Source: a virus
DNA length: 64,000 nucleotides
IMG/VR virus record: IMGVR_UViG_3300033997_000478
Span: 1 to 64,000 of that record
Direction: 5' to 3' (one strand)
The notes under the pieces were generated by a model. That model was given only the letters and a program-made list of their open reading frames with translations, did no database searches and had not been told where the DNA came from. Positions 1-50,743 of the stretch are shown here, piece after piece. The position numbers and the translations under genes are program-made. Each line of letters starts with the position of its first letter. The first letter of the stretch is position 1.

Positions 1-2895
1 GAGATCACCATCGTGGTGGAGAACTACGCACTGCTCAACCACCTCTACCGCTACCCGATCAACTACTTCCGCCAGTACTACATGTGGTGGAACGTGCAGG
101 CAGCACTGTGGAAGAACGTTGGCCGCATCACTGACTCCTACCCGCAACGGAATCAGTACCTGCGTGTCAACCTGCCCACCATCCTGCCGCCGATGAACAT
201 CCTGCGTCGCGGCGAAGGTGAGATGACCCGCACCCTGCTGCCCAACTTCGTTGAGCCAGAAGCGCTGTTCATTCTGGAGATCTGGAAGTGGCTGGGCGAG
301 CGCCGTGAGAACTCGGTACTGTCCAAGGTCTCCCCGGAATCGCTGCGTCAGATGAACATCATGTTCGTCGATGGCGACCGCTGGATCATGCTCAACCTGG
401 GACTGCTGGATCAGTGGCGTAAGGCACCGGGTGCTGAACTCACTGAAGACAGCGATCCGTCCAAGGTCAAGGGCGTGCTCGATGCAGTGCCGCTGCAGAA
501 GCGTTTCCTGCGCATGCTGATGACCTTGATGGACAACCGTCTGTCCAAGGAAGAAGCTGCTCAGGTCACCGCACAGATCGACACGGCAGCGGTGCCCACC
601 GAGATCCCGGCTGATAGCCCGGCCGGTGAACCGGTACAGACCGACATCGTCACTGCACGTGCCGAACCGGTCAAGCTGGACATCACCAATGCCGACGGCA
701 GCGTCTCCAAGGTCAAGCTCACCTCGAGCCTGAATCTGGATCGCCTGCCCGAGCAGCTGATCGAAGAAACCGAAGCCAATGCCAAGCGCATTGACGAGGC
801 CATTACCCGCGACCTGGAAGCACTGGAGCACATCGCTGCGCGCTACCAGGAAACCCGTACGGCCGAAGGTGCTGAAGACGCCCCCGAGGCGGTGGAACCC
901 AGCACTGAGGCTGGTAGTTTCATCAAGTACGATCCGGAAGACCGTACGCTCACCTCCGGGGTGATGAACATCGTCAATCAGCAAGCTGACGCCGGCATGA
1001 TCTCTGGTGCCGAGTACCGTCGCATGCAGGCGCTGGCCGATGCGTACACCCGCCTGCCCAATCCCTTCGGTGAGGGTCAGCTGGTGGATATGCTGGACAT
1101 CCCCAAGGATGATCTGGTTCTGCATCCGGAAGAAGTGGCGCCGAATCTGCCGACCGTGCCGGACAAGTCCATGCTCTCCTCGGTGGTGGCCTCCTATGAC
1201 CGCCAGTACCTGCGCAACGTACTGCCCAAGGACATCGTTCGTTCGGTGTTGTCGGTGCAGAATGCAGGCGTGGCCGTTACCGGTTTCCAGATGGAGGAGT
1301 ACCGTGACGCGCTGAGTAACTATCAGCAGTTCTCGGTCAACCTGACCCCGGTGGTGGGCAAGCCTTCCACGGTTCACTTCAAGCTGCCGGTCGTTGATGA
1401 CGATGGCACCTACACCGATAACGGCACCCGTCTGCGTCTGCGCAAGCAGCGCGGTGACATGCCGATCCGTAAGGTGGCGCCCAACCGCGTGGCGCTGACC
1501 AGCTACTACAACAAGGTCTTCATCAATCGAAGCGAGAAGAAGGCGTACACCTATTCGGATTGGTTGCTCAACCAAGTCGCTGCGCGCGCAGCCGACGAAG
1601 AGAACCCCTCCATCGTTTCGGCGATGATGGCCGATGTGTGTGACCACACCATCCTCTTGCCGCGACTGTACATGATCTTCGCCAGTCGTTTCCGCTCGTT
1701 CACCGTCTTCCACGAAGAGCGTCCGCTCAACTTCTTCTTCGACTACCATGCCCGCAAGGCTATGTTCGGCGAAGACGCGGTCGCCGCAGCGGAAAGTAAT
1801 GGTCTGGTGGTCTGTGGTCGCGTGGGCGACAACCTGCTGGTCATCGACAACACCGGAGCTGTCTACGAATCGCAAGGTCTGGAAACCCGTACCTTGGGTC
1901 CGCTGACCACCCTGCTGGACATTACCGGCAAGGCTCCGACGGAGATGGCCGAGATCAAGGTCTTGGGCAAGCTGATCCCGCTGGGTGTTGTACTGGCTTA
2001 CTACCTGGGTCTGAACGAACTGCTGCGCCTGCTGGGCGTGACGCCACGTCGCATCCCCACCGGTACCCGTGCTTATCTGGCCGATGATGAAATCGCCCTG
2101 CGCTTTGAAGATGAGATGTTGGCCATCCCGGCTGACAACGGCGTGCGTTCGATGTTGCTGACCGGCCTGGCTGCTTTTGAAAAGAGCACCCGTAACTACC
2201 CGGTCGCCCTGTTCAATCGCCGCGAGATCTACTTCAACGTGCTGGAGCAGTCCGGCTACGGCGGCCGCTACCTGCGTGAACTGGATCTGCTGCGCGACAT
2301 GTTCGTTGATCCGATCACCGCTGAGCTGCTGGAGGAAATGAAGGAGCCGACCGAGTGGATTGGTCTGCTGCTGCGTTCGTGCCAGTTGCTGGAAACGGAG
2401 TGGGCTCCGGATGAAACCGACATGGCCTACATGCGCATCAAGGGCTACGAGCGTTTTGCTGGCGCCATCTATGGCGAGCTGGTCAAGGCGATCCGTGTCC
2501 AGCGTTCGCGTGGTTCGGTAGCGCGTGCCAAGATCGACATGCACCCCCATGCGGTGTGGACCTCACTGCGCGAAGACCCGGCGGTGAAGATGGTGGAAGA
2601 ATCCAATCCCGTGCACAACCTGCGCGAGCGTGAGGAAGTCACCTTCTCCGGCACCGGTGGTCGTTCCAATCGTTCGATGGTTGGTCGTGCGCGCGTGTTC
2701 CATGAAAACGACATCGGCCTGATCTCTGAGTCCACCAAGGACTCCGGCGACGTGGCCATCACCACTTTCATGACTGCCAACCCGACCCTGATCAACGTGC
2801 GCGGCACCAGCCGCCGTTTTGAAGAAGGTAAGGACGGTGCTGCTTCGATCATGTCTTCACCGGCAATCCTCTCGCCGTGTGCGGATAACGATGAT
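1..2895 (+). CDS. RNA polymerase beta subunit (probably virion RNAP), exon 1, 5' end outside window
   Basis: The reading frame is open from base 1, so the gene starts upstream of the window. About 965 codons are present. The end of this exon (codons for NPVHNLREREEVTFSGTGG and following residues) aligns by eye with the fork-loop region of bacterial RpoB (NPLSEITHKRRISALGPGG), and the exon ends with SPCADNDD just before the region equivalent to RpoB ASLIPFLEHDDANRA. The frame meets TAA at 2896-2898, but the remainder of the beta subunit continues in frame at 4226 after a group I intron, so this is an exon and not a truncated protein. Gene order downstream (two or three unknown proteins, then a prohead protease) resembles phiKZ gp178-gp175, which suggests the polymerase packaged in the virion. 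The assignment to virion rather than non-virion enzyme is inference; the beta identity is firm. Confidence 0.85.
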
Positions 2896-4225
2896 TAATG
2901 GTTCTATTGAATACCTGTTAAGTTAACACTCCTATCTTATGGATGAGAGGAGATTGAGAGATGAAAAATTTGAGGTTCTTGCCGGGGTTGAGTAAATACG
3001 GCTTTAGCGAAAGTGGCCGTATATTCAGCTTCCGCACACACCGGTGGTTGAAGTACAGTAAAGACACAAATGGGTACTTCACCCTACTGCTGATAAATGA
3101 TGACGGGGTTTCATCCCGATACCTCCGACATCGGTTACTGGCACGACTATTTTTGGGCGAACCCAATTCACCCGAATTGCTAGTTAATCACAAAAACGGC
3201 ATAAAGGGCGATGATCGCATCGATAATCTTGAGTGGGTATCACCAACCGAGAATGTCGAGCATGCGGGGGCAATGGGCCTCACACCCAAATGCTTTCCTA
3301 TTTCTGTTCGCCATGTATCAGACGGCACGATCCACCACTACCCAAGCGCTGTCGCAGCGGCGCGCGCTCTCGGCATGAGTAAAGATGCGATCCTGTGGAG
3401 GATTCATGGCGACCCCGACGCCGTCTATCCTGAAGGACGTCAGTATCGTAAGCGCGATGATAATGCAACCTGGTTAACCGGACCTCGTAAAAATGGGCGA
3501 TCGGTGGTTACCCTCATGCGCGACATTCAAACCGGTGACGTTCTACGTTTCGAGCAGCAGGGGAAAGTGGCTGAGTTACTCTCATTGAGTTTGGCGGCCG
3601 TCAACAAGGCAGCCGGCGATGGGAGGCAGCGGTTACTTCATTCTAGGTATCTCTTGAAGCTAGAGGGAGATCCGACCCCATGGCGCGAGATCTCCAACCC
3701 AATGTTGGAAGGGGTGGGGTGTTGTGTGGTTGTCACACACGCTTCAACCGGCAATACACAGACCTTTAACACAGCCAAGGAGTGCGCTGAGGTGATGGGT
3801 CTGAAAGCAACAACTCTCAATGAACGACTTAACAAGGGCGGGCAACGTATCTATGCCGACGGGTACAGCTACAGCCGCCTGTAGAATCCTAGTCCATCTT
3901 CTAGGCGACTAGAAGAATGAATGTCCTTTAATTGCTGGAAACCCCTTAGAGCCACGCTACCACTGCGAGACGAAAGTCAAAGCCACTCCGTAAGGAGGTA
4001 CCCGTCCGTCAGGGCGAGTATGGTTAGAAAAGTGCGTGGATTGGGCAATCAGCAGCCAAGCTCCGTGTAGGAGAAGGTTCAACGACTAAGGCCTTATCAG
4101 CCTGTAGGGTCAAGTGGCCCGAAATGGGGACCCTCTCTCGAAGAGGAAGATATAGTCTCGTCTGCATGGAAACATGCAGCCGCCTTAGGGCGGGTGGTGT
4201 CTAACGAACACCATCGAAGATAACG
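2896..4225 (+). ncRNA. Group I self-splicing intron (T4 td-like core) inside the beta-subunit gene
   Basis: The stretch 3929-4160 carries the conserved core of a phage group I intron: P-like AATTGCTGGAAACCCC near 3930, R-like AATCAGCAGCCAAGCTCC at 4047, GGTTCAACGACTA at 4076, and S-like AAGATATAGTCT at 4147. These closely resemble the T4 td core as known. The best in-frame splice is after T2895 (exon GATGAT, intron TAATGG) and after G4225 (intron end ATAACG, exon GGCAAG); it joins ...NDD to GKRVNF. Bases 2889-2895 can pair imperfectly with 2901-2909 as a P1 helix with a U.G pair at the splice site. The 3' splice position is less certain: G4216 or G4219 also keep the frame. The intron is about 1.33 kb, and an HNH gene fills its 5' half. 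Confidence 0.9.
2961..3884 (+). CDS. Intron-encoded HNH homing endonuclease
   Basis: The 307-residue product has the I-HmuI-like HNH signature VNHKNGIKGDDRIDNLEWVS near residues 75-95, followed by TENVEHA. An N-terminal NUMOD4-like segment precedes it, and the C-terminal half carries repeated small helix-turn-helix (NUMOD1-like) units, for example around SAVAAARALGMSKDAILWRI and NTAKECAEVMGLKATTL. Such proteins nick or cut intronless alleles so that the intron is copied in. The ATG at 2961 has AGGAG upstream (2947-2951). Base composition is clearly more AT-rich than the flanking exons, as expected for a mobile gene. The ORF lies between the 5' splice site and the ribozyme core, so its translation must be compatible with splicing. 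Confidence 0.92.
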   Translation: MKNLRFLPGLSKYGFSESGRIFSFRTHRWLKYSKDTNGYFTLLLINDDGVSSRYLRHRLLARLFLGEPNSPELLVNHKNGIKGDDRIDNLEWVSPTENVEHAGAMGLTPKCFPISVRHVSDGTIHHYPSAVAAARALGMSKDAILWRIHGDPDAVYPEGRQYRKRDDNATWLTGPRKNGRSVVTLMRDIQTGDVLRFEQQGKVAELLSLSLAAVNKAAGDGRQRLLHSRYLLKLEGDPTPWREISNPMLEGVGCCVVVTHASTGNTQTFNTAKECAEVMGLKATTLNERLNKGGQRIYADGYSYSRL

Positions 4226-5350
4226 GGCAAGCGCGTGAACTTCATTCCGATCCAGCACTCCTCCGGTACGTTCTGCAAGGGCGCCAAGCCCACGCCGCTG
4301 CATACCGGTGCCGACATGGTCATGGCCCACCGCACCGATCGTGCGTTCTCGGTGCCGGCCATCAAGGACGGTGTGGTGACCTCGCTGAATGAACGCGGCA
4401 TGGTGGTGACCTACGAAGACGGTACGACCGAGAACATCGCCCTGGGCCGTCGTTACGGCAAGGCGCAAGGTCTGTACTTCCCGCAGAACCTGACCACCCA
4501 GCTGGAGTTGAACCAGCCGGTCAAGGTGGGTGACATCATCGCCTACAACGACCGCTACTTCCAGCCGGACCGCATGGTCAAGAACCAAGTGGTGTGGAAG
4601 GCGGGTCTGTTGGTGCTCACCGCACTGATGGAAACTCCCGACACCCTGGAAGACTCCTCGGTGATCTCCGCCGAAGTGGCGAAGGAACTGGAGACTGAAA
4701 TCACCTACATTCGCGACATCACTGTGCAGTTCAAACAGGCCGTTCATGGCCTGGTAGAACCGGGCCAGGTGGTGGACATCAACAGTATCCTATGTACGAT
4801 TGAGGACGCTGTGACGGCCGAAAATCAGCTGTTCGACGAGCCTTCGTTGGACATGTTGCGTCTGCTGTCGTCCAACACGCCGCGAGCCAAGTACAAGGGT
4901 GTGGTCGAAAAGGTCGAAGTGCTCTACCACGGTGACATGGACGATATGTCCGACACCCTGCAAGAGATCACTGCCCTGTCCGATCGTGAGCGTAAGCGAG
5001 CCGCCCGTGCCCTCCAACAACCGGCCGTTCTCGGCCGCGTCAACGAGTCGGCACGTATCCAAGGTAAGCCTCTGCCGGTGGATTCCTTGGTCATTCGCGT
5101 GTACATCACCAGCCCCACGGCTGCCGGTGTCGGCGATAAGGGCGTGTTCGCCAACCAGATGAAGACCATCTTCGGCCGCGTCATGAATGGGCGCAACGAA
5201 ACTGCCGATGGTCGTCCGCTGGGTGCGATCTTCAGTTACCAGAGTCTGTCCAACCGTATCGTGCTCTCCCCAGAGAAGATCGGTTTGACCAATTCGCTTC
5301 TGATTGAAATTTCCAAACGCGCCGCCAAGGCGTATCGAGGCAACCGATGA
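4226..5350 (+). CDS. RNA polymerase beta subunit (probably virion RNAP), exon 2
   Basis: This exon encodes the catalytic C-terminal part of the beta subunit, about 374 residues. It starts with GKRVNFIPIQHSSG, equivalent to RpoB ASLIPFLEHDDANRA, followed by KDGVVTSL (RpoB KRGGVVQYV) and GDIIAYNDRYF (RpoB GDVLADGPSTD). The segment GVGDKGVFANQMKTIFGRVM corresponds to RpoB PGDKMAGRHGNKGVIS, and SYQSLSNRIVLSPEKIG to the VLNPLGVPSRMNIGQ region. A GTG at 4235 lies in this frame but has no ribosome-binding site and sits inside a conserved motif, so independent translation is unlikely; the exon is expected to be read only after splicing. The stop overlaps the ATG of the next gene (ATGA). Confidence 0.88.
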   Translation, partial: GKRVNFIPIQHSSGTFCKGAKPTPLHTGADMVMAHRTDRAFSVPAIKDGVVTSLNERGMVVTYEDGTTENIALGRRYGKAQGLYFPQNLTTQLELNQPVKVGDIIAYNDRYFQPDRMVKNQVVWKAGLLVLTALMETPDTLEDSSVISAEVAKELETEITYIRDITVQFKQAVHGLVEPGQVVDINSILCTIEDAVTAENQLFDEPSLDMLRLLSSNTPRAKYKGVVEKVEVLYHGDMDDMSDTLQEITALSDRERKRAARALQQPAVLGRVNESARIQGKPLPVDSLVIRVYITSPTAAGVGDKGVFANQMKTIFGRVMNGRNETADGRPLGAIFSYQSLSNRIVLSPEKIGLTNSLLIEISKRAAKAYRGNR

Positions 5351-5568
5351 GTGACTTCAAACAATCCCTGATCCGTGCCAACACGCCCATCATTGCCAAT
5401 GCCCTGGAACTGGGTGCTGCGGCTATCATGGACGTTTCGGGCAACGAGATTTCCAACCACGTGGACGGCCGGGAAGTGACCCCGGCCTTCCTGCAATCGG
5501 CGCTGGGTCGTAGCCTGAAGCACAACCTGCTTCACCACAACCCCAAGCCCACCAAGAGCTGGAGCTGA
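5347..5568 (+). CDS. Small hypothetical protein (73 aa)
   Basis: The start codon overlaps the beta-subunit stop (ATGA), so the gene is translationally coupled to the polymerase, and the next gene begins 4 bases after its stop. The product is mildly basic at the C-terminus (KPTKSW) and has no motif that I recognise. Codon use matches the neighbouring probable virion genes. The position between polymerase and likely virion proteins suggests a minor virion or assembly role, which is inference only. Confidence 0.7.
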   Translation: MSDFKQSLIRANTPIIANALELGAAAIMDVSGNEISNHVDGREVTPAFLQSALGRSLKHNLLHHNPKPTKSWS

Positions 5569-5571
5569 TCG

Positions 5572-6996
5572 ATGTCGCTGACCAAAACCTCCCTGGGCCT
5601 GGCCCACATGATCGCCAGCTCCCTGGCCGATCAGAACGTGGAACTGGGTACCGTGCCCAACACCAGTGTGGACGAGCTGACCCGCCTGTCCACCGGCGTG
5701 CTGGAGATGCAGGAAAGCATCCATCCGGCAGGCCGTGCCAACGTCACCATGCTGTCCATGGCTGACGCACTGGAAGCCGGCGCTTCGGCCACCACCGATG
5801 AAGAGCACTACCCGCACAGCGGCGCGATGGCACGCTTTGCCCAGAACGCCGGCCGTGTCCTGGCCTCGACCCTGGACCTGACCCAGAACAAGGTCACCCC
5901 GATGATCGGCCGTGTGGTCGAAGCCATCAACCAGACCGTGACTGAGCGCCTGCAAGGCATGGACTCCCCGCTGACCTTGGTCGAGCGTAAGGACGATCCG
6001 ATGCTGTCCTCGCATTACCTGCAGGAGAACGTGGCACGCTACGCCGGCTATCCGAGCGGCATGCGTCTGCGCAACTTCGGCCTGGGTGCATGCAGCTGGA
6101 ACCTGGCCGCCACCGGCCACTCGGGCATGGACAGCGAAGTGGCTGAGTTCACCAACCGCGTCGGTCAGGAAAAGATCAACTGGGTGTGCAACGCACTGTT
6201 CAACGGTGGCGCTGCCAACAGCTCGGAGATCTACGGCCTGGCTGATCAGTTCGAGAACTCGGTCATCGCCTACTTCCTGGCCATCCAGGGCCTGACCAAC
6301 GTTCCGGACGGCATCAACTGCTCGCTGGAAGAGTGGAACAGCTACTGCTCGCAGATCGTCAGCACCGCCGGTGCGGCCATCTCTTACGTGATGTCCCGTC
6401 GCGACAAGGTCAACTCCACCGGTCTGCTGGTCGTGAGCGCCCCGCTCAGCGGCGCCACCAGTGGCGTGATCGAAGTCAATGCTGCCCGCTACGCCGACTA
6501 CCTGGCTCAAGGCGGTACCGTCGAAGCGCTGTACGGCTCGTTCTACGAGCGCGGCAACTTCGAGCCGGGTTACCTGCTGGCCAACCAGGAACGGCTGACC
6601 AAGGACTGGGAGAACAGCCTGGCCCTGTGGAAGACCCAGCTGGTCGGTGCTCGCCTGGACGCCATGATCGCCGCCACCACTGCCGTGCTCACCGCCGAGA
6701 TCAACGCGATCCCGGAAGAAGAACTGGTCGGTTCGCGTGAAGCCTACCACGCTCGCCTGCGCGAGCGCATGGGTCATGCCAAGGCGCGCGACTTCGACAA
6801 CATGTGGCACTTCGCTCGCAAGGCGGTCTGCCGCGTGATCTTCCCGCACACCGACGCCGAAGTGCTGCTGCTGGGCGTTGAGCAGCAGGAGAAGATCTAT
6901 CCGGGTACTCCGGTGCGTGAGCTGGCCCTGCGTGCGGCCGTGGACCTGATGGGTGCATGGCTGGCTGAGCAGATCGTCACCACGGTCGTCAAGTAA
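5572..6996 (+). CDS. Probable virion structural protein (474 aa), phiKZ gp177-like by position
   Basis: The 474-residue product is rich in Ala, Leu and Glu, looks mainly helical, and has no recognised catalytic motif. Its codon use is the strict GC-ending pattern seen in the sheath, tube, ChmA and PhuZ genes of this window, which suggests a highly expressed protein. It sits between the RNA polymerase beta gene and a prohead protease. In phiKZ the corresponding interval (gp176-gp177) encodes virion proteins, as I recall. Residues around 60-75 (MLSMADALEAGASA) and the C-terminal helix (AVDLMGAWLAEQIV) are notably Ala-rich. Function is unknown; the virion role is inferred from context. Confidence 0.75.
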   Translation: MSLTKTSLGLAHMIASSLADQNVELGTVPNTSVDELTRLSTGVLEMQESIHPAGRANVTMLSMADALEAGASATTDEEHYPHSGAMARFAQNAGRVLASTLDLTQNKVTPMIGRVVEAINQTVTERLQGMDSPLTLVERKDDPMLSSHYLQENVARYAGYPSGMRLRNFGLGACSWNLAATGHSGMDSEVAEFTNRVGQEKINWVCNALFNGGAANSSEIYGLADQFENSVIAYFLAIQGLTNVPDGINCSLEEWNSYCSQIVSTAGAAISYVMSRRDKVNSTGLLVVSAPLSGATSGVIEVNAARYADYLAQGGTVEALYGSFYERGNFEPGYLLANQERLTKDWENSLALWKTQLVGARLDAMIAATTAVLTAEINAIPEEELVGSREAYHARLRERMGHAKARDFDNMWHFARKAVCRVIFPHTDAEVLLLGVEQQEKIYPGTPVRELALRAAVDLMGAWLAEQIVTTVVK

Positions 6997-7006
6997 GGCC
7001 TGAGTC

Positions 7007-7732
7007 GTGAATCCCTCGACTTGGGTGCGCGATTGGGACAAGGTGAAGAAATGCCTTGTCACCAATGCCGACAAGTCGGTGATGACCACCAAGGCAGTCA
7101 AGATCTATATCCCGGAGCGATACCGGGAGAAGTCGCTGGCTGAAATCGGAACCGATACGTACATCCTTGGGATGTACGCCTTGGTGGTGGAAGACAAGTA
7201 CTACGCGGTGAGCAATGTCTGTGGCATGGTGCGAATCAAGCCCAGCTCCATTGCCACCGTGAAGTACGAGGGGGAGTCCTACTTGGAGTTCTCCTTTGAT
7301 CCGGGCAGTGTGGTCATTGCGACCACCTCCCTGGTGCGCGATGACGTTCTGGTCTACCGCATCTTCCACTACTTCATCGCCGGCGGTCGTGTTCCGTTCT
7401 ACATGGACTACGACGATGCCTGCCAGCTGTTCAAGACAGCCGACAAGCACGCCAACGTCCGGCTTGCCCGCTCCCGCCCCATTCTGGAAATGTTTGCTGC
7501 CACGATCTCCCGAGATCCGAAGAAGCGAACTGAGTACTACCGCCATTCGTTGCCGCAGGGCACTGAAGCGCCGACCTTTGGTCCGGCCTTTGTGGCCATG
7601 CGCGACGTAACCATGGGTCCGACCAACACGACAGCACGCCTGCAAGGTGCGTACTGGAATGATGCTCTGACCTCCGCGCTCGTCAACCCCAGCTCCCGAC
7701 CGGAGCGGTTCGAGCAACTTCTGCGCGCTTAA
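7007..7732 (+). CDS. Hypothetical protein (241 aa), phiKZ gp176-like by position
   Basis: The start is GTG at 7007, ten bases after the preceding stop, with AAGG at 6993-6996 as a modest ribosome-binding site. The first 50 residues are basic and contain an IPERYREK segment; the middle part (IKPSSIATVKYEGESYLEFSF) looks like beta structure, and the second half looks helical. I recognise no enzymatic motif. It is immediately followed by the prohead protease, so a head-assembly or virion role is the simplest reading. Confidence 0.72.
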   Translation: MNPSTWVRDWDKVKKCLVTNADKSVMTTKAVKIYIPERYREKSLAEIGTDTYILGMYALVVEDKYYAVSNVCGMVRIKPSSIATVKYEGESYLEFSFDPGSVVIATTSLVRDDVLVYRIFHYFIAGGRVPFYMDYDDACQLFKTADKHANVRLARSRPILEMFAATISRDPKKRTEYYRHSLPQGTEAPTFGPAFVAMRDVTMGPTNTTARLQGAYWNDALTSALVNPSSRPERFEQLLRA

Positions 7733-7744
7733 GGAAACAGGTCC

Positions 7745-8524
7745 ATGAGTTTTTCTCTTTCCTGTACCGCGCTGGTGGGCACCAACAAAGCTGGCACCCT
7801 CAAGCCGGATGCAGATGGCTATTACCAAGTGGTTCTGGGCGCACTGGACGTTTACAACAACACCGGTGCGTTCTACCCCGAGGCCACGGCCCGTCAACTG
7901 TTCCAAGCGTCCTCCTCGCTGATGCGCCGCATCGCCTCGGGTAACCTCCGCGGCGAGTACGGTCACCCCACCCCGGAACCGGGCATGTCCATGGATGCCT
8001 TCGTTGCGCGCGTTCGCCGCATCGACGAAGACCGCATCTGCATGCACATCCGCAAGGTGTGGATCGATTACTCCTTCAAGAACCTGAAGGGGCAGCCGAT
8101 CATTGCGATCCTCGGTGAAATCCGTCCGTCCGGCCCGCGTGGTCCGGCACTGAAGGACCAGCTGGAGAATCGCTTCGAGGACGTGTGTTTCTCCATTCGT
8201 TCGCTGACCCACGACTTCAACTCCGGTGGTCGCCTGACGAAGAACTTCAAGATGATCGTGACGTGGGACTACGTCAACGAACCGGGCCTGGATGTTGCAC
8301 GCAAGTGGAACTCCCCGGCCATGGAAAGTCTGAAGGAGCCAGTACTGGCCAAGCAGCTGGAAGAGCGTTTCATCATGCCCTTCCAGATCGCCAACATGGC
8401 CAAGACCCAAGGGCCGAACATGCTCGGCATGGAAAGCAACGGCGGCGTCTCGCTGGAGGAGATGGCCGAAGTCATGTCCGAAGTCGAGAAGGAAACCACC
8501 CCTCCGGCCTGGATGAATTGGTAA
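7745..8524 (+). CDS. Prohead (capsid maturation) protease, S80/T4 gp21-like, phiKZ gp175-like
   Basis: The 259-residue protein carries the hallmarks of the herpesvirus-assemblin/T4 gp21 serine protease fold: NLRGEYGHP with the candidate catalytic His74, and FEDVCFSIRS with the candidate nucleophile Ser150 (the family pattern is a Ser in a strand followed by x-R). A plausible second His (His156, SLTHDF) follows. Such proteases clip scaffold and capsid proteins inside the prohead before DNA packaging. In phiKZ the homologue is gp175, next to gp176-gp178, which matches the gene order here. A good ribosome-binding site (AAGGAA) lies before ATG 7745. The last 40 residues are acidic. The catalytic assignments are by pattern only. 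Confidence 0.78.
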   Translation: MSFSLSCTALVGTNKAGTLKPDADGYYQVVLGALDVYNNTGAFYPEATARQLFQASSSLMRRIASGNLRGEYGHPTPEPGMSMDAFVARVRRIDEDRICMHIRKVWIDYSFKNLKGQPIIAILGEIRPSGPRGPALKDQLENRFEDVCFSIRSLTHDFNSGGRLTKNFKMIVTWDYVNEPGLDVARKWNSPAMESLKEPVLAKQLEERFIMPFQIANMAKTQGPNMLGMESNGGVSLEEMAEVMSEVEKETTPPAWMNW

Positions 8525-8546
8525 GGGCATTTCTGAAAAGAAATAC

Positions 8547-8560
8547 ACACCCTTACTATC
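8547..8560 (+). promoter_or_regulatory. Candidate phage promoter motif (ACACCCTTACTATC)
   Basis: The motif is one of a set of similar sites in this window that occur just after a transcription unit ends and 27-149 bases before the next start codon. Here it lies 48 bases upstream of ATG 8609. Function is inferred from recurrence and position. Confidence 0.5.
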
Positions 8561-8608
8561 TGAGTGAACTGTCATCCCGATAGACGCTCACCAACCAAGG
8601 AGCAACCC

Positions 8609-8887
8609 ATGCAGGACACCACCAGCTTCATCGAACGCGACGGCATGATCAGCGACAAGGACACCATGGCCGGTCAGACCACCGGTGATTGGATCGACCG
8701 CGAAGTCGTCGGCGGCTTCATCCGTGACAACGACACCCAGGCTGGCACGGCCGTGGGTGAAGGCATCAGCCTGGCCACCGAAACCATCGTCGACAACGGC
8801 GTCGAAGGCCTGAGTAACGGCTACGACGAAGGTATCACCGGCGTCGAAGATGTCATCAAGAACGACGCCTTCAACGTCGGCGGTTAA
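8609..8887 (+). CDS. Small acidic Gly/Asp-rich protein (92 aa)
   Basis: ATG 8609 is chosen because AAGGAG (8597-8602) sits at good spacing; an in-frame upstream ATG at 8564 has none. The product is acidic, rich in Gly, Asp and Thr, and has repeated short units of the form TIVDNGVEG/GITGVEDVI. It is a single-gene unit: a candidate promoter precedes it and a strong terminator hairpin follows. Codon use is that of highly expressed genes. No family is recognised. Confidence 0.75.
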   Translation: MQDTTSFIERDGMISDKDTMAGQTTGDWIDREVVGGFIRDNDTQAGTAVGEGISLATETIVDNGVEGLSNGYDEGITGVEDVIKNDAFNVGG

Positions 8888-8901
8888 CCGCGCCTGCATA
8901 T

Positions 8902-8928
8902 CGCCCAGCTCCTGTTAAGGGAGCTGGG
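8902..8928 (+). terminator. Rho-independent-type terminator
   Basis: Nine-base arms GCCCAGCTC and GAGCTGGGC are followed by TTTATG, the short U-tract ending common to terminators of this genome. Confidence 0.8.
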
Positions 8929-9007
8929 CTTTATGTCGTCAAGTCGTCAATCTTTACACCGGGGTCTGATAGCTTGAACCATCCCCAACCACCAAGGAGT
9001 CATCTGA

Positions 9008-9427
9008 ATGGCATCTCTCAGCCGCCACGAAGTCAAAGAGCTGATCGCGAAGTTCAAGGAAAAGCACTTCCCCAAGTACAAGCCGGGGACCCAGTTGGTC
9101 GATCACATCGGTAACGGCGATACGCTGTACCCCGAGATCGGTCCACTGGAACACGAGCTGGACCACACCACCGGCCCGCTGGGTCCGTGTGTCAAGAACC
9201 GGGCGCGCATCCTCAAGCACTTCATCGAGATGCCGGCCGGGCCCGAGGTGTTGCAGATGTTCAACTTCGCCATGCATCGTGTCCGCTACGAAGGCGATGC
9301 CACGCGCGTGATCAAGCGCTTGCGCATCGACTGGACTGCGCACAAGAAGCAGCAGGACGAGCAGCTCAAGAAGCTGCCGAAGGTGATGGCCGAGATCAAC
9401 GAGGCCGAACGCCGCCTGTCGGCCTGA
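9008..9427 (+). CDS. Hypothetical protein (139 aa)
   Basis: ATG 9008 is preceded by AAGGAG (8994-8999). The product is highly charged: a Lys-rich N-terminal third (RHEVKELIAKFKEKHFPKYK) and a helical, Lys/Gln/Glu-rich C-terminal third that could form a coiled coil (KKQQDEQLKKLPKVMAEINE). The middle has a His/Asp-containing GPLEHELDHTTGP segment. No domain is recognised. The gene ends just before a perfect terminator hairpin. Confidence 0.75.
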   Translation: MASLSRHEVKELIAKFKEKHFPKYKPGTQLVDHIGNGDTLYPEIGPLEHELDHTTGPLGPCVKNRARILKHFIEMPAGPEVLQMFNFAMHRVRYEGDATRVIKRLRIDWTAHKKQQDEQLKKLPKVMAEINEAERRLSA

Positions 9428-9434
9428 ACCACGG

Positions 9435-9454
9435 GCGGGAGGGCAACCTCCCGC
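9435..9454 (+). terminator. Terminator hairpin before the macro-domain gene
   Basis: Perfect eight-base arms GCGGGAGG and CCTCCCGC around a GCAA loop are followed by TCTTATG. Confidence 0.7.
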
Positions 9455-9476
9455 TCTTATGCTCGCAAGGAATGAC

Positions 9477-9935
9477 ATGATTATCTCGGAACAACGGGAA
9501 GATCTGTTTCGGTGCCGTATGCAATGCCTGATATGTAGTGTTAATACGATCGGCGCCATGGGCAAGGGCATTGCAGTGGAGTTCCGCAATCGCGTACCGG
9601 GTCTCTACCGTTTCTACCAAGGCATCTACAACGACATCCCGCCCAACTACCACAAGATCCATCGTCTGGAAGTGTTTGACGTGGATGACAAGCGTAAGGT
9701 GTTGTTGTTTCCCACCAAAGACAACTGGCGCTTTCCGTCCAAGCTGCCAATGATCGATGCGAACCTGCGACAGCTCGCAGAACGCTACGAAGAATTCGGC
9801 ATCACCTCCATCGGCCTGCCCCTGATCGGGTGTGGGCACAACACCGGTCAGCTCAACTGGGAACAGCAGGTTCGTCCATTGGTTTATCAGCACTTGGACC
9901 CACTTCCCATTCCAGTCAAGATCTGCATCGGATAA
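9477..9935 (+). CDS. DarG-like macro-domain protein (candidate ADP-ribosyl-DNA hydrolase, anti-DarTG)
   Basis: The 152-residue protein is a stand-alone macro domain. Ligand-loop features are visible in order: VNTIGAMGKGIAVEF (residues 22-36), FPTKDNWRFPSKL (78-90) and PLIGCGHNTGQLNW (115-128). This combination (VN-x-G-MGKGIA, PTK-x-x-W-R, then a Gly-rich loop ending in L-x-W) is typical of the DarG antitoxin macro domain, which removes ADP-ribose from thymidine in DNA after modification by the DarT toxin. ATG 9477 is preferred over ATG 9459 because AAGGAA (9467-9472) lies just before it. DarG's C-terminal DarT-binding domain is absent and there is no darT next to it, which suits an anti-defence enzyme better than a toxin-antitoxin pair. 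Another ADP-ribose substrate cannot be excluded. Confidence 0.82.
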   Translation: MIISEQREDLFRCRMQCLICSVNTIGAMGKGIAVEFRNRVPGLYRFYQGIYNDIPPNYHKIHRLEVFDVDDKRKVLLFPTKDNWRFPSKLPMIDANLRQLAERYEEFGITSIGLPLIGCGHNTGQLNWEQQVRPLVYQHLDPLPIPVKICIG

Positions 9936-9948
9936 CAAGGATTCAGCA

Positions 9949-10851
9949 ATGAGCAATATCGTCAGCCTTGACAAGTTCAAAACCGGTCGTAACTTGGACT
10001 CCGTGACGGCCTGGTTCGAGCAGTTTGCAACCGGTCCGGTATTCATGGAAATCATCCGCGGTGCTTTCGAAGCCCACTCAGATATTGACGGTGAGTATAC
10101 CCTACCGTTTAGCATCAGCGCACCGCGCATGGTGGCCGGTCAGTCACTTGACATGTGTTTCTATCGGGACGATCAGGAGTTCAGCAGTCTCACTCTAGGT
10201 TGGATGGCGGCGCCGGCGTTCGCCACTTTCGGTGTGATCCAATCCATGACACCGACCCTGGTGGAAACCACCGATCAAAGCAAGGCTTACCTGCAAAAAA
10301 CTATCGGTGAAATGCTGCTGTCCCTGAACGTCTATACCAACTTCGGTGGTGTGGGCAACTTGCTTTCCATGGCAGTTTGCCTGCTCACCGAAATGGTCAA
10401 GAGAACCGGGATGATCCACGAATACGTGGCGCCGGATGGGGATCATTTCTTCACCGCTTTCGTCACGGAGGACGGGGCTGATCCGAATGACGTAGAGCCG
10501 GAAGTTCTCACGCTGCGCATCAAGCATCAAGAATACAATCTGGTCAAGGGCCGCTTGCGGGCGCTGATGAAAACGCAGATGCCCGCAAGAGGTCCTAGCT
10601 GGGAAAATGTCGAGGGCGGCAAGATTCGTGCCAAGATTGTTTCCAGTAAGAAGCCTGAGAGTCCCCTCTTCAAGAGAGGCAAGGACAAACAAATCAACAA
10701 GTGGATCGGCGAAATCCTTACCGAGGAGATCGTCGGTAATGATCGCACTGCGATGGAGCGGTATGTCCGCAACCTTCTGTGCTGGCACGAACACTACGCC
10801 ACTTACTACAACATCGAAGGATGGTCCTATGAAGTTTCTTGGAAGGGATGA
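9949..10851 (+). CDS. Hypothetical protein (300 aa)
   Basis: ATG 9949 is selected because AAGG precedes it and it follows the macro-domain stop by 13 bases; the frame is open further upstream but overlaps the macro gene. The product begins with a short SLDKFKTGRN segment, has hydrophobic stretches (residues 80-100 and 125-150) without clear transmembrane character, and a basic C-terminal third. It overlaps the next gene by 23 bases, so the two are likely co-translated. No domain is recognised. Confidence 0.7.
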   Translation: MSNIVSLDKFKTGRNLDSVTAWFEQFATGPVFMEIIRGAFEAHSDIDGEYTLPFSISAPRMVAGQSLDMCFYRDDQEFSSLTLGWMAAPAFATFGVIQSMTPTLVETTDQSKAYLQKTIGEMLLSLNVYTNFGGVGNLLSMAVCLLTEMVKRTGMIHEYVAPDGDHFFTAFVTEDGADPNDVEPEVLTLRIKHQEYNLVKGRLRALMKTQMPARGPSWENVEGGKIRAKIVSSKKPESPLFKRGKDKQINKWIGEILTEEIVGNDRTAMERYVRNLLCWHEHYATYYNIEGWSYEVSWKG

Positions 10852-47090: not shown

Positions 47091-49019
47091 ATGGCCACCA
47101 ACACCCCGAACGACAACAACAACGAAACCGGCACCACCAGCGCAGAAGCCATCTTCAACCGCAACTCCGGCAACACCGCCGGTGCCCAGAACGCCGGTGG
47201 CAGCCAGAGCGGCGGCTTCAACCGCAATGCCGGCCGCGCTGCCCGTCCGGGCCTGACCGCTCGCCTGAGCGGCGCACGTGGCGTGGTCTCGCGCCGCCGT
47301 CCGGGTGCCGAACTGGAAGTCATGCGCAAGGCCTTCGAAGAGGCCCTGAGCCAGTTCCACACCTCCGGCCGCCTGCAGGGCGGTGAGAACCTGAAGCTGA
47401 TGCTGATCGATCGCCAGGAACTGGACCGCAAGGTCGAGCTGCTGGTTGCCTACATCCCGATGACCGTCGACAACCAGCTGCACGTGTCGATCTACACCGT
47501 GATCCTGGCCGACCAGAGCGAGAACCTGGACAGCATCAAGTTCCAGGGCACCGGCGGCCGCAACTTCGCCTACACCGTGACCGCAGGCGACGCCTGGGAT
47601 CGCAACCTGTGGGTGAAGGTCGCAGCGATCGTGCAGGAAAACATGGGCGCTGTCGCCATCCAGCACAACGCCGGCGCGCAGGTCATCCCGGCCGAAACCG
47701 ACGTCACCGACAAGGGCCTGATCCACGGCCTGGCGTTCTTCGTCTCCGAAGGCCTGACCCGCACCATCACCGACAAGATCCTGAAGTCCACCGATGACGT
47801 GATCTCGGTCGCCGACATCGGCGACGACGAAATCGTCGAAGGCAAGCTGGTCTACAGCACCCTGCCGCTGACCACCGCCGCCGGCCTGCCGCTGCGTGGT
47901 GACATCCAGGCCAAGCTGAGCTACAGCCAGCGCGGCAACGAGGGTGACCAGCGTGAACGTGCCTTCAGCCTGGACAACAGCCGTCCGCTGGCCGGCGCCG
48001 CCGGCTTCATCGACCTGGGCTGGGAAGACCCGCAGCAGCCGGCCTTCGGCCAGCAGCCGGCCACCCAGCGCTACCGTGCACGCTTCGTCATGACCCGCCT
48101 GGACACCGAAGGTGACTGGATCACCCCGGAACTGCAGCTGCTGTCGCTGGCCGGCGCCACCCTGGTGGCACGTCAGATGGCCTGGGCTCGCATCTGGTCG
48201 CAGGAGTTCCGTACCAAGGAACACGACATCGGCGTGATCGGCTACGAGCTGGCTCCGGGTGGCGAAGCTGAGCGCATCAACACCTCGGCCGCAGCCTTCA
48301 CCAACGAAGCGCTGTACCAGCTGGTGTCGGCGACCATCTACCCGGACATCCTGTTCCAGCTGGACATCGAAGAAGTCGGCGAGCTGTCGTTCCAGAACCG
48401 CGTGCTGCTCGACGCTGCCAACAACAACGCCGATGCGCAGGACGCCGTGATCGCGGCCGCCAACAACCTGACCAACAACGAGTTCACCCGTCTGTGGCAG
48501 GCCGGCACCCCGTTCGTCATGAACGATGGCAACCGCATCCACCTGGGCTACTACGAAGCCAACGACGGTCAGCGTCGTGACATCCGTGACCTGGACTACC
48601 TGTTCATGCTGGAGCGCTTCGGCGCGCAGGATCCGAAGATGGTCGAGCGCTGGCAGGCGACCTTCGACGACGTCGAACGCGACGAAGTCGAGCGTGTGGC
48701 TGAGCGTGAAGACATGATCCGCAAGATCCTGGGCCCGACGGTGACCATCACCGGCTACGCTCGTCGCGTGACCTTCCACCCGCAGGCCCTGGACGTCCTG
48801 CTGGCCGCTTGCGGCGCAGCCGGCCTGACCATCCGTCAGGACTCGCAGTCCTACGGCTTCACCGGTTCGGCCGCTCGCGGTCGTGCTTCGGGCGGTGCCT
48901 TCGCCTTCGGCGGCGGCGCTACGAACAACCTGTTCAGCTCGGGCGTCACCGGCAGCCGTGGTCGCGGCTTCGGCTCCACCTTCACCGGTGGTTCGACCTG
49001 GCGTGGTCGCGGTAACTGA
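47091..49019 (+). CDS. chmA: Putative phage nuclear shell protein (chimallin, ChmA)
   Basis: The 642-residue protein has the size of known chimallins (about 630 residues) and lies immediately upstream of the RNA polymerase beta-prime N-terminal gene, as phiKZ gp54 does next to gp55. Codon use is the strictest in the window, as expected for the most abundant early protein. The first 65 residues and the last 50 look disordered and are rich in Gly, Arg, Asn and Ser (GSRGRGFGSTFTGGSTWRGR), while the middle is a folded alpha/beta core. Chimallin assembles into a one-protein-thick lattice that encloses phage DNA. I could not align the core to a known chimallin, so the call rests on size, context and abundance; another abundant phage protein is possible. 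Confidence 0.65.
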   Translation: MATNTPNDNNNETGTTSAEAIFNRNSGNTAGAQNAGGSQSGGFNRNAGRAARPGLTARLSGARGVVSRRRPGAELEVMRKAFEEALSQFHTSGRLQGGENLKLMLIDRQELDRKVELLVAYIPMTVDNQLHVSIYTVILADQSENLDSIKFQGTGGRNFAYTVTAGDAWDRNLWVKVAAIVQENMGAVAIQHNAGAQVIPAETDVTDKGLIHGLAFFVSEGLTRTITDKILKSTDDVISVADIGDDEIVEGKLVYSTLPLTTAAGLPLRGDIQAKLSYSQRGNEGDQRERAFSLDNSRPLAGAAGFIDLGWEDPQQPAFGQQPATQRYRARFVMTRLDTEGDWITPELQLLSLAGATLVARQMAWARIWSQEFRTKEHDIGVIGYELAPGGEAERINTSAAAFTNEALYQLVSATIYPDILFQLDIEEVGELSFQNRVLLDAANNNADAQDAVIAAANNLTNNEFTRLWQAGTPFVMNDGNRIHLGYYEANDGQRRDIRDLDYLFMLERFGAQDPKMVERWQATFDDVERDEVERVAEREDMIRKILGPTVTITGYARRVTFHPQALDVLLAACGAAGLTIRQDSQSYGFTGSAARGRASGGAFAFGGGATNNLFSSGVTGSRGRGFGSTFTGGSTWRGRGN

Positions 49020-49097: not shown

Positions 49098-49306
49098 CCG
49101 TTAAGACGTAATTTGCAACACAATAGAGAGATCTATTGAGCACTGTCTTTTGGGTGGCAGTGTGAAAACGACAAACCGAAAACCCAAGCAGAAACGAGGG
49201 CTGTGTCATAGACACTCAACTACCAGATGTTGGTGAAAACCCATATCGTGCTGTCCCACGCATCCCCGTAGGACTGGGGCGTAAGTTCGATGGTATCGGT
49301 ATCGGG

Positions 49307-50743
49307 TTGGTGGATTTCGATGCGCTGTTTGAGCAGGCAACGACTCCCCCGGTGATTCTCAACACATTCAACGTCGATACGGTGGATGACAAGACGTTGC
49401 TGGACTCGATGGTGTACACTTACTACGACGGCGATTCGCTGAACGTGGTACCGATGTGTGAATGCCAGCGCACCACTGGTGCCGGCATGATCAATCAGCG
49501 ATGTAGCTTCTGCGGTACGACCGTTCTCCCGCTGAGCGAGCGTCCGCTGGAATCGCTGCTGTGGATGGAACCTCCGGCAGGTGTGGAGACGTTCATCAAT
49601 CCGCAGGTGTGGACCATGCTGTCCAAGGCCATGACCCATGGTGGGATCAATGGTCTGTTGTGGTTGGTGGATCCTCTGGCCATCGTAGGGCCGGAACCGC
49701 ACAAGGAAATTCGACGCCTGATGGATCTGGGCATCGATCGCGGCATCAATCACTTCTACAAGAACTTCGACCAGATCATCGAGCTGCTGTTCAATACGCA
49801 GGTGATCGCCGGTGGCAACCGCCATCAGCGTGAAGAGCTGTGGCAGTTCATCCAGTGCAATCGGCACAAGATCTTCGCCAAGCGACTGCCGGTCCCCTCG
49901 CGTATGGGCTTTGTGGCCGAGCGTACCGTCACCGGTACGTTTGCAGATAAGACCATGAAGCCGATGCTCGATGCGATCCGCACGATCTCCTCGGCAGTGC
50001 ATTCGCAGACGCCACTGGACATCCGCAAGCTCCAGTCGCGCACGATGCTGGCCAATGACCTGGTGGCAACCTACTCCCAGGACTTCATGGCCGCAACGCT
50101 GACCTCCAAGCGGGGTTGGCTGCGTAAGCACGTGTACGGCAATCCGCTGTTCTTCACCTTCCGTGGTGTGATCAGCTCGATGTCCGAGCGCCACGAGTAC
50201 GACGAACTGCACGTGCCGTGGGGCATCTGCATGTCGACCTACTCCAAGCACTTGGAGAACAAGCTCTACAAGACGGCGATCAATGAGCGTGGACGTCCGT
50301 TCACTCCCAACGAAGCTATCGGGCTCATCGAAAGCCATACCCTGCGGTACCACCCGGTCCTCCACAGCTTGTTCAATGAGCTGATCGAGGAATCCCCGCA
50401 CAAGGGCCTGCCGGTGCTGTTCAACCGCAACCCGTCGCTGGACCGTGGTTCGATCCAGGAGTTCTTCATTACCAAGGTGATCGAAGACCCCGAGATCAAC
50501 GCCATCGCAATGTCGGTTCTGTGCCTGAAGGCGCCGAATGCTGACTTCGACGGCGATGCCCTCAACGGCATGGCGATTCTGGACAACCGTTCTGAACGCC
50601 ACTTCGCTGCACTGGCCCCGCACTTCGGTGCACTGGACCTGGATCATCCGCGCCGGATGTCCAACAACCAGGCTTTCCCGCCTCCGGTTGCTGGCGCCAT
50701 CGCGAACATGGTTCATCGCAGCGATCGTACTGTGGTACAATGA
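49307..50743 (+). CDS. RNA polymerase beta-prime subunit, N-terminal half (non-virion RNAP, phiKZ gp55-like)
   Basis: The protein carries the invariant catalytic motif NADFDGD (residues 411-417, counted from TTG 49307) whose three Asp bind the active-site magnesium. Near the N-terminus MCECQRTTGAGMINQRCSFC aligns with the bacterial beta-prime zinc ribbon (C-x-C ... C-x2-C). It ends shortly after the active site, so the beta-prime subunit is split into two genes, as in phiKZ-type polymerases. The start is problematic: the frame is open back to 49166 without ATG, GTG or TTG, and the upstream residues (VGLGRKFDGIGIG) look genuine. The true start may be a rare codon such as ATA 49208, which has GAGGG seven bases upstream. 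Confidence 0.9.
   Translation: MVDFDALFEQATTPPVILNTFNVDTVDDKTLLDSMVYTYYDGDSLNVVPMCECQRTTGAGMINQRCSFCGTTVLPLSERPLESLLWMEPPAGVETFINPQVWTMLSKAMTHGGINGLLWLVDPLAIVGPEPHKEIRRLMDLGIDRGINHFYKNFDQIIELLFNTQVIAGGNRHQREELWQFIQCNRHKIFAKRLPVPSRMGFVAERTVTGTFADKTMKPMLDAIRTISSAVHSQTPLDIRKLQSRTMLANDLVATYSQDFMAATLTSKRGWLRKHVYGNPLFFTFRGVISSMSERHEYDELHVPWGICMSTYSKHLENKLYKTAINERGRPFTPNEAIGLIESHTLRYHPVLHSLFNELIEESPHKGLPVLFNRNPSLDRGSIQEFFITKVIEDPEINAIAMSVLCLKAPNADFDGDALNGMAILDNRSERHFAALAPHFGALDLDHPRRMSNNQAFPPPVAGAIANMVHRSDRTVVQ

Follow-up and report, generated by a model that had tools for sequence, protein, structure and literature searches.

Interruption of the virion RNA polymerase gene

The segment of 64,000 nt analyzed here (the window, positions 1 to 64,000 of IMGVR_UViG_3300033997_000478, whose source is termed the study phage) contains a beta subunit gene of a virion RNA polymerase (vRNAP) that is interrupted close to its catalytic region. 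The locus raises the question of what the interrupting element is, whether it belongs to the mobile introns known from related phages and what its endonuclease gene may do. The following features define the locus:

1..2895, + strand, 5' exon of the vRNAP beta gene, continuing upstream across the end of the circular contig (phrog_3148, E 4.9e-286)
2896..4225, + strand, group I intron of 1330 nt (RF00028; ends set by intronless homologues and related introns)
2896..2910, + strand, 5' intron segment with a candidate internal guide sequence (GUU-CU-AUUG pairs with exon CGAUGAU)
2961..3884, + strand, HNH homing endonuclease ORF of 307 aa (PF13392, PF22083, phrog_59, PDB 1u3e, PhiPA3 gp210)
3875..4179, + strand, catalytic core of the intron (RF00028; covariation across 12 introns)
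4226..5350, + strand, 3' exon of the vRNAP beta gene (phrog_3148, E 3.9e-148)

At the sequence level, the element is confirmed as a group I intron that carries an HNH homing-endonuclease gene and splits the virion beta gene. The covariance-model search with RF00028, which a preliminary description of this DNA had named as a check, matches 3875-4179 on the + strand over the full model length, scoring 74.1 bits against a gathering score of 50 (E 6e-17), and it is the sole match above gathering score for any Rfam family in the 64-kb window. The core is intact according to the model and its motifs are conserved; among 12 related phage introns sharing one consensus fold, 47 of the 66 core pairs exhibit compensatory changes. 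The 5' ORF ends with ...ADNDD and runs into TAA at 2896-2898, the first bases of the intron, while the 3' exon resumes in frame at 4226 with GGC AAG CGC (GKR). Joining 2895 to 4226 generates a single open beta frame of 1340 aa inside the window, or ~1500 aa once the part across the contig end is added. Comparison with uninterrupted homologues, and with a naturally occurring empty/occupied pair for this site, places the intron ends at exactly the same bases; LucasX, DT01, FLC9 and environmental phages encode an uninterrupted beta subunit with ..DD-X-KR.. at the insertion point. With the boundaries fixed by these intronless homologues, the 5' exon ends in U2895 and the intron in G4225, as is the rule for group I introns. 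The RNA architecture suggests that the intron is self-splicing. A candidate P1 of 7 pairs plus a 2-nt bulge can be drawn, which is equalled by 9.6% of control segments and is not significant alone; since P1 does not reach significance in single introns, it was rejected as stand-alone evidence for the 5' splice site. An intein was also rejected, since the insert opens with a stop codon and its ORF possesses a separate start.

The preliminary description had placed a group I intron at exactly 2896-4225, with the HNH ORF 5' of the catalytic core and the insertion at NDD/GKR beside the catalytic region, all of which is borne out by the covariance-model match, the order of ORF and core and the in-frame junction. 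The "IPF...HDS" block that it read after the junction needs correction, as the motif found there is GKRVNFIPIQHSSG.

The interrupted gene and its phage

Both exons are covered by the same beta family, with matches to positions 115-1050 and 1052-1423 of the phrog_3148 profile. Judging from its ends, which share a 127-nt direct terminal overlap and can be joined, the 324-kb record seems to represent a complete genome, either circular or circularly permuted. As this overlap makes the contig circular, the beta gene begins at the opposite end of the record. The gene for beta' (phrog_2986, a phiKZ gp180 homologue) lies upstream of beta in the same synteny as in LucasX. Two further genes bear on the type of polymerase:

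47586..48968, + strand, homologue of ChmA, the phage nucleus shell protein (29% identity to PhiPA3 gp53, E 4.7e-38)
49295..50719, + strand, homologue of the N-terminal part of non-virion RNAP beta' (40% identity to PhiPA3 gp54, E 5.8e-103)

The presence of ChmA and of a separate non-virion beta' homologue predicts a nucleus-forming jumbo phage with both polymerases, in which the interrupted one is of the virion type. Family membership in phrog_3148 and the LucasX-type synteny agree with this assignment, and the earlier reading of the gene as virion rather than non-virion beta of a jumbo phage was correct. The study phage belongs to the LucasX clade, with Xanthomonas phage LucasX as the nearest isolate. 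IMGVR_UViG_3300035670_000161 represents an identical phage, with a 100% match along 10.7 kb (window 1-10699).

Known introns at the beta site

The best-characterized intron at this position is that of PhiPA3, in which gp210 lies within the vRNAP beta gene gp211/209 (Birkholz et al., 2024, Science; PMC11620839). The HNH enzyme gp210 nicks the empty phiKZ gene gp178, imported gp210 blocks virion formation, gp210 lowers phiKZ output, and PhiPA3 gains an advantage through gp210 during co-infection (PMC11620839). Both introns interrupt vRNAP beta at an identical inter-codon position, behind a pair of conserved Asp codons, and both combine a group I core with an HNH ORF 5' of it in a ChmA-encoding phage. 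They differ in length (1352 nt in PhiPA3 versus 1330 nt in the study phage), in the residue after the junction (Gly in the study phage, not Met as in PhiPA3) and in sequence, the HNH proteins being only 36% and the exons about 40% identical. Unlike PhiPA3, the study phage sits in the LucasX clade. A target gene or site distinct from that of PhiPA3 was rejected, the inter-codon position being identical; the preliminary description, which had missed PhiPA3, supposed that the target might differ from that in phiKZ.

Introns at the beta site are also present in 201phi2-1 (where the interruption is annotated), HPP-Temi, EL, the Serratia phages 2050HW/Haymo and environmental phages. In 201phi2-1 (gp273/274), HPP-Temi and EL, the same insertion point is occupied by introns without an endonuclease ORF (336-415 nt); those of 201phi2-1 and HPP-Temi match RF00028 and that of EL has recognizable core motifs. 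In the RefSeq annotation of 201phi2-1, gp273/274 is a joined protein that was detected by mass spectrometry and whose gene a mobile element interrupts. The vRNAP beta gene of 2050HW/Haymo, from a different phage clade than the study phage, contains an HNH intron of 1371 nt at the same site, with an HNH protein 35% identical to that of the study phage. Since the insertion site is identical to that of PhiPA3 and the 201phi2-1 case was already annotated, the study intron is a new example of a known element; it is real but largely expected, and not new in kind. The Serratia phages Yaphecito and BUCT660 carry a ~424-nt insert with core-like motifs at the same beta site (Yaphecito locus 3382-3805); the Yaphecito insert has no match to RF00028 at the gathering cut-off, and no final G stands at the expected base.

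The endonuclease and its relatives

The HNH ORF is full length and its HNH_3 motif aligns to gp210. PF13392 (HNH_3) and PF22083 (I-HmuI-like C-terminal domain) score above cut-off, and matches to NUMOD1/4 are weak and below it. The sole credible solved relative is PDB 1u3e (E 4e-8), the HNH nicking endonuclease I-HmuI of SPO1, which is likewise an HNH/NUMOD-type enzyme encoded by a group I intron of a phage but aligns to the study HNH in its N-terminal region only (residues 12-145). The I-HmuI intron interrupts a Bacillus phage gene for DNA polymerase. PhiPA3 gp210 is the best full-length phage homologue (36% over 99%), and the HNH from the beta-site intron of 2050HW/Haymo comes next (35% over about 300 aa). 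Setting aside the copy in the identical phage, the nearest IMG/VR HNH is that of env24312 (IMGVR 3300024312_000005), at 43% over about 300 aa and also from the beta site. Beta-site HNHs are mostly 33-46% identical to each other over about 300 aa, with one outlier at 25-28%, whereas their similarity to the two HNHs encoded in DNA-polymerase introns of the study phage is more distant (26-36%, mostly partial); the study HNH itself matches these two at 26% over 327 aa and at 36% over only 182 aa. The study HNH is therefore nearest to the enzymes of the gp210 site and not to other HNHs, which places it in the gp210-site lineage, and in these comparisons the HNH clade tracks the insertion site.

Mobility of the beta-site introns

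The beta site is interrupted in 10 of the 29 beta genes compared, and the closest relatives of the study phage, LucasX and env11559, lack the intron. On the beta tree, intron presence is scattered to the same degree as shuffled labels: it requires at least 8 changes, compared with 8.6 after shuffling, and 6 of them are forced by supported branches. At DD|PKR, the environmental phage env24312 contains an insert of exactly 1306 nt that is absent from the intron-free environmental phage env24282 (IMGVR 3300024282_000001); the two are 99.3% identical along 4842 bp on the upstream side, and their identity is 100% for at least 2807 bp on the downstream side. Of the 32 mismatches upstream, five lie in the 100 nt nearest the site (binomial P 5e-4), and such a pile-up of mismatches just 5' of the site is expected from homing with one-sided exon co-conversion. 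Gain by homing is the simplest reading, though the difference could also reflect a precise loss. The site family thereby exhibits the features of mobile introns, i.e. patchy distribution, precise insertion and a signature of exon co-conversion, the last of which belongs to the env24312/env24282 pair and not to the study phage.

A recent transfer into the study phage itself is unsupported, as the junction is not surrounded by a clear excess of mismatches to LucasX. In addition, the HNH is no more similar to gp210 (36%) than the exons are (about 40%), so that no recent transfer is indicated for this copy. Recent movement shows only in the environmental relative env24312, as far as can be read from the sequences compared.

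Proposed mechanism and alternative explanations

The study element is very probably a mobile group I intron of the PhiPA3 gp210 kind with an HNH enzyme for homing or interference. According to this model, the intron RNA would excise itself from the beta mRNA and join the codons NDD|GKR, which should restore an intact beta subunit of the virion polymerase. In co-infecting relatives whose vRNAP genes are intron-free, the HNH protein encoded by the intron should nick this same conserved site. Repair of the nicked gene would copy the intron into it together with some flanking exon sequence (homing); where the genomes are too diverged or reside in separate phage nuclei, the competitor would simply lose an essential gene (interference). 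Interference has been demonstrated experimentally only for PhiPA3 against phiKZ (PMC11620839).

If the HNH gene were a mere passenger, the intron would splice but be immobile and its endonuclease harmless to competitors. The persistence of ORF-less beta-site introns in 201phi2-1, HPP-Temi and EL shows that the endonuclease can be lost or absent from copies of the intron and lends this explanation some weight, yet the full-length ORF with its gp210-like HNH_3 motif, the correspondence between HNH clade and site, and the recent occupied/empty polymorphism that involves the nearest relative, env24312, make it unlikely. A role in regulation, as put forward in the preliminary description, would have splicing efficiency set the amount of virion polymerase made and packaged. 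Unspliced mRNA does stop right after NDD, and splicing is hence needed for an intact beta subunit; the patchy presence of the intron, its absence from LucasX and env11559 and the existence of the near-identical intron-free env24282 argue against a regulatory need for it in these phages, and this idea is hardly tenable.

A degraded, non-splicing intron between exons that are translated as two polypeptides and assemble into a split beta subunit is also conceivable, given that natural splits of jumbo-phage polymerase subunits occur elsewhere (PMC7598289), that each half is annotated as a gene by itself in EL and HPP-Temi and that a GTG start is available at 4235. Against such an arrangement stand the intact core, the single chain encoded by intronless relatives, the joined 201phi2-1 protein found by mass spectrometry and the location of the junction in a near-active-site motif, which would be an unusual place for a chain break, and it is regarded as highly improbable. 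The mobile intron with its own endonuclease is thus the preferred reading.

A hairpin over the ribosome-binding site

Upstream of the HNH ORF, folding predicts an additional element:

2929..2952, + strand, hairpin CUCCU/AGGAG over the Shine-Dalgarno sequence of the HNH ORF

In the study phage this hairpin is present with unremarkable energy, the Shine-Dalgarno pairing probability is 0.75, and the structure is weaker than in the PhiPA3 gp210 intron. Across 9 HNH ORFs of vRNAP introns, the mean pairing probability is 0.76, compared with 0.46 in 54 control genes, i.e. other genes of such phages (p 2e-4). The hairpin sequences differ and six of the 9 are individually significant. Hairpins of this kind are in use in the intron endonucleases of T4 (PMC2988022), and the ribosome-binding site (RBS) is base-paired likewise across vRNAP introns. 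Endonuclease synthesis is probably kept low by the hairpin over its RBS, which would hold back translation of the ORF. Term searches limited to main text returned no description of an RBS hairpin for gp210, and no earlier report of unusual RBS base-pairing across vRNAP-intron endonucleases was found. A Shine-Dalgarno hairpin was also observed at the equivalent place in 7 other loci with intron HNH ORFs.

Introns in beta' and in the DNA polymerase gene

The beta' gene of the study phage harbors an ORF-less group I intron of 397 nt (contig 321927-322323, outside the window, 62.6 bits) at GAD|FDGDT, within the catalytic motif, for which no earlier report was found. LucasX and env11559 are occupied in the same way, and in env31933 (IMGVR 3300031933_000228) an HNH intron follows these GAD codons. 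In phiKZ, a group I intron with gp179 interrupts the virion beta' gene gp180 at GAD|FDGDT; it is thus an HNH intron of a virion polymerase gene at the same site as the beta' intron of the study phage, in beta' and not in beta. A restriction of this site to the LucasX clade was rejected, as phiKZ is occupied too; the preliminary description had spoken of a phiKZ intron in the non-virion beta gene and lacked the one in virion beta'. EL combines its beta-site intron with an HNH intron in beta' near the GAD|FDGDT motif. The introns in beta and beta' across these phages identify both active-site sequences of the virion polymerase as recurrent intron targets. Two group I cores in tandem near the catalytic motif were observed in env31933 beta' (locus about 4689-5461), where they possibly flank a very short exon.

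These data extend the site of a proven phage-versus-phage intron endonuclease weapon to a new nucleus-forming clade, with LucasX as nearest isolate. The survey portrays the beta site as repeatedly gained and lost, and yields a near-identical natural pair with and without the intron that, together with the RBS hairpin, makes homing, resistance and endonuclease timing directly testable. In a broader scenario, which is speculative and quite unlikely to hold, beta DD|XKR and beta' GAD|FDGDT would jointly serve nucleus-forming phages as an intron battleground, the conserved RBS hairpin would gate endonuclease release to the stage at which it harms rivals, and doubly occupied phages would be protected from both weapons.

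In the same genome, the family B DNA polymerase gene (minus strand, contig 68000-78000 region) is split by a pair of group I introns, both of which contain an HNH ORF of their own (383 and 443 aa):

contig 73668-73951, - strand, DNA-polymerase intron core
contig 71879-72180, - strand, DNA-polymerase intron core

Together with the introns in beta and beta', this amounts to four detectable group I introns in the genome of the study phage.
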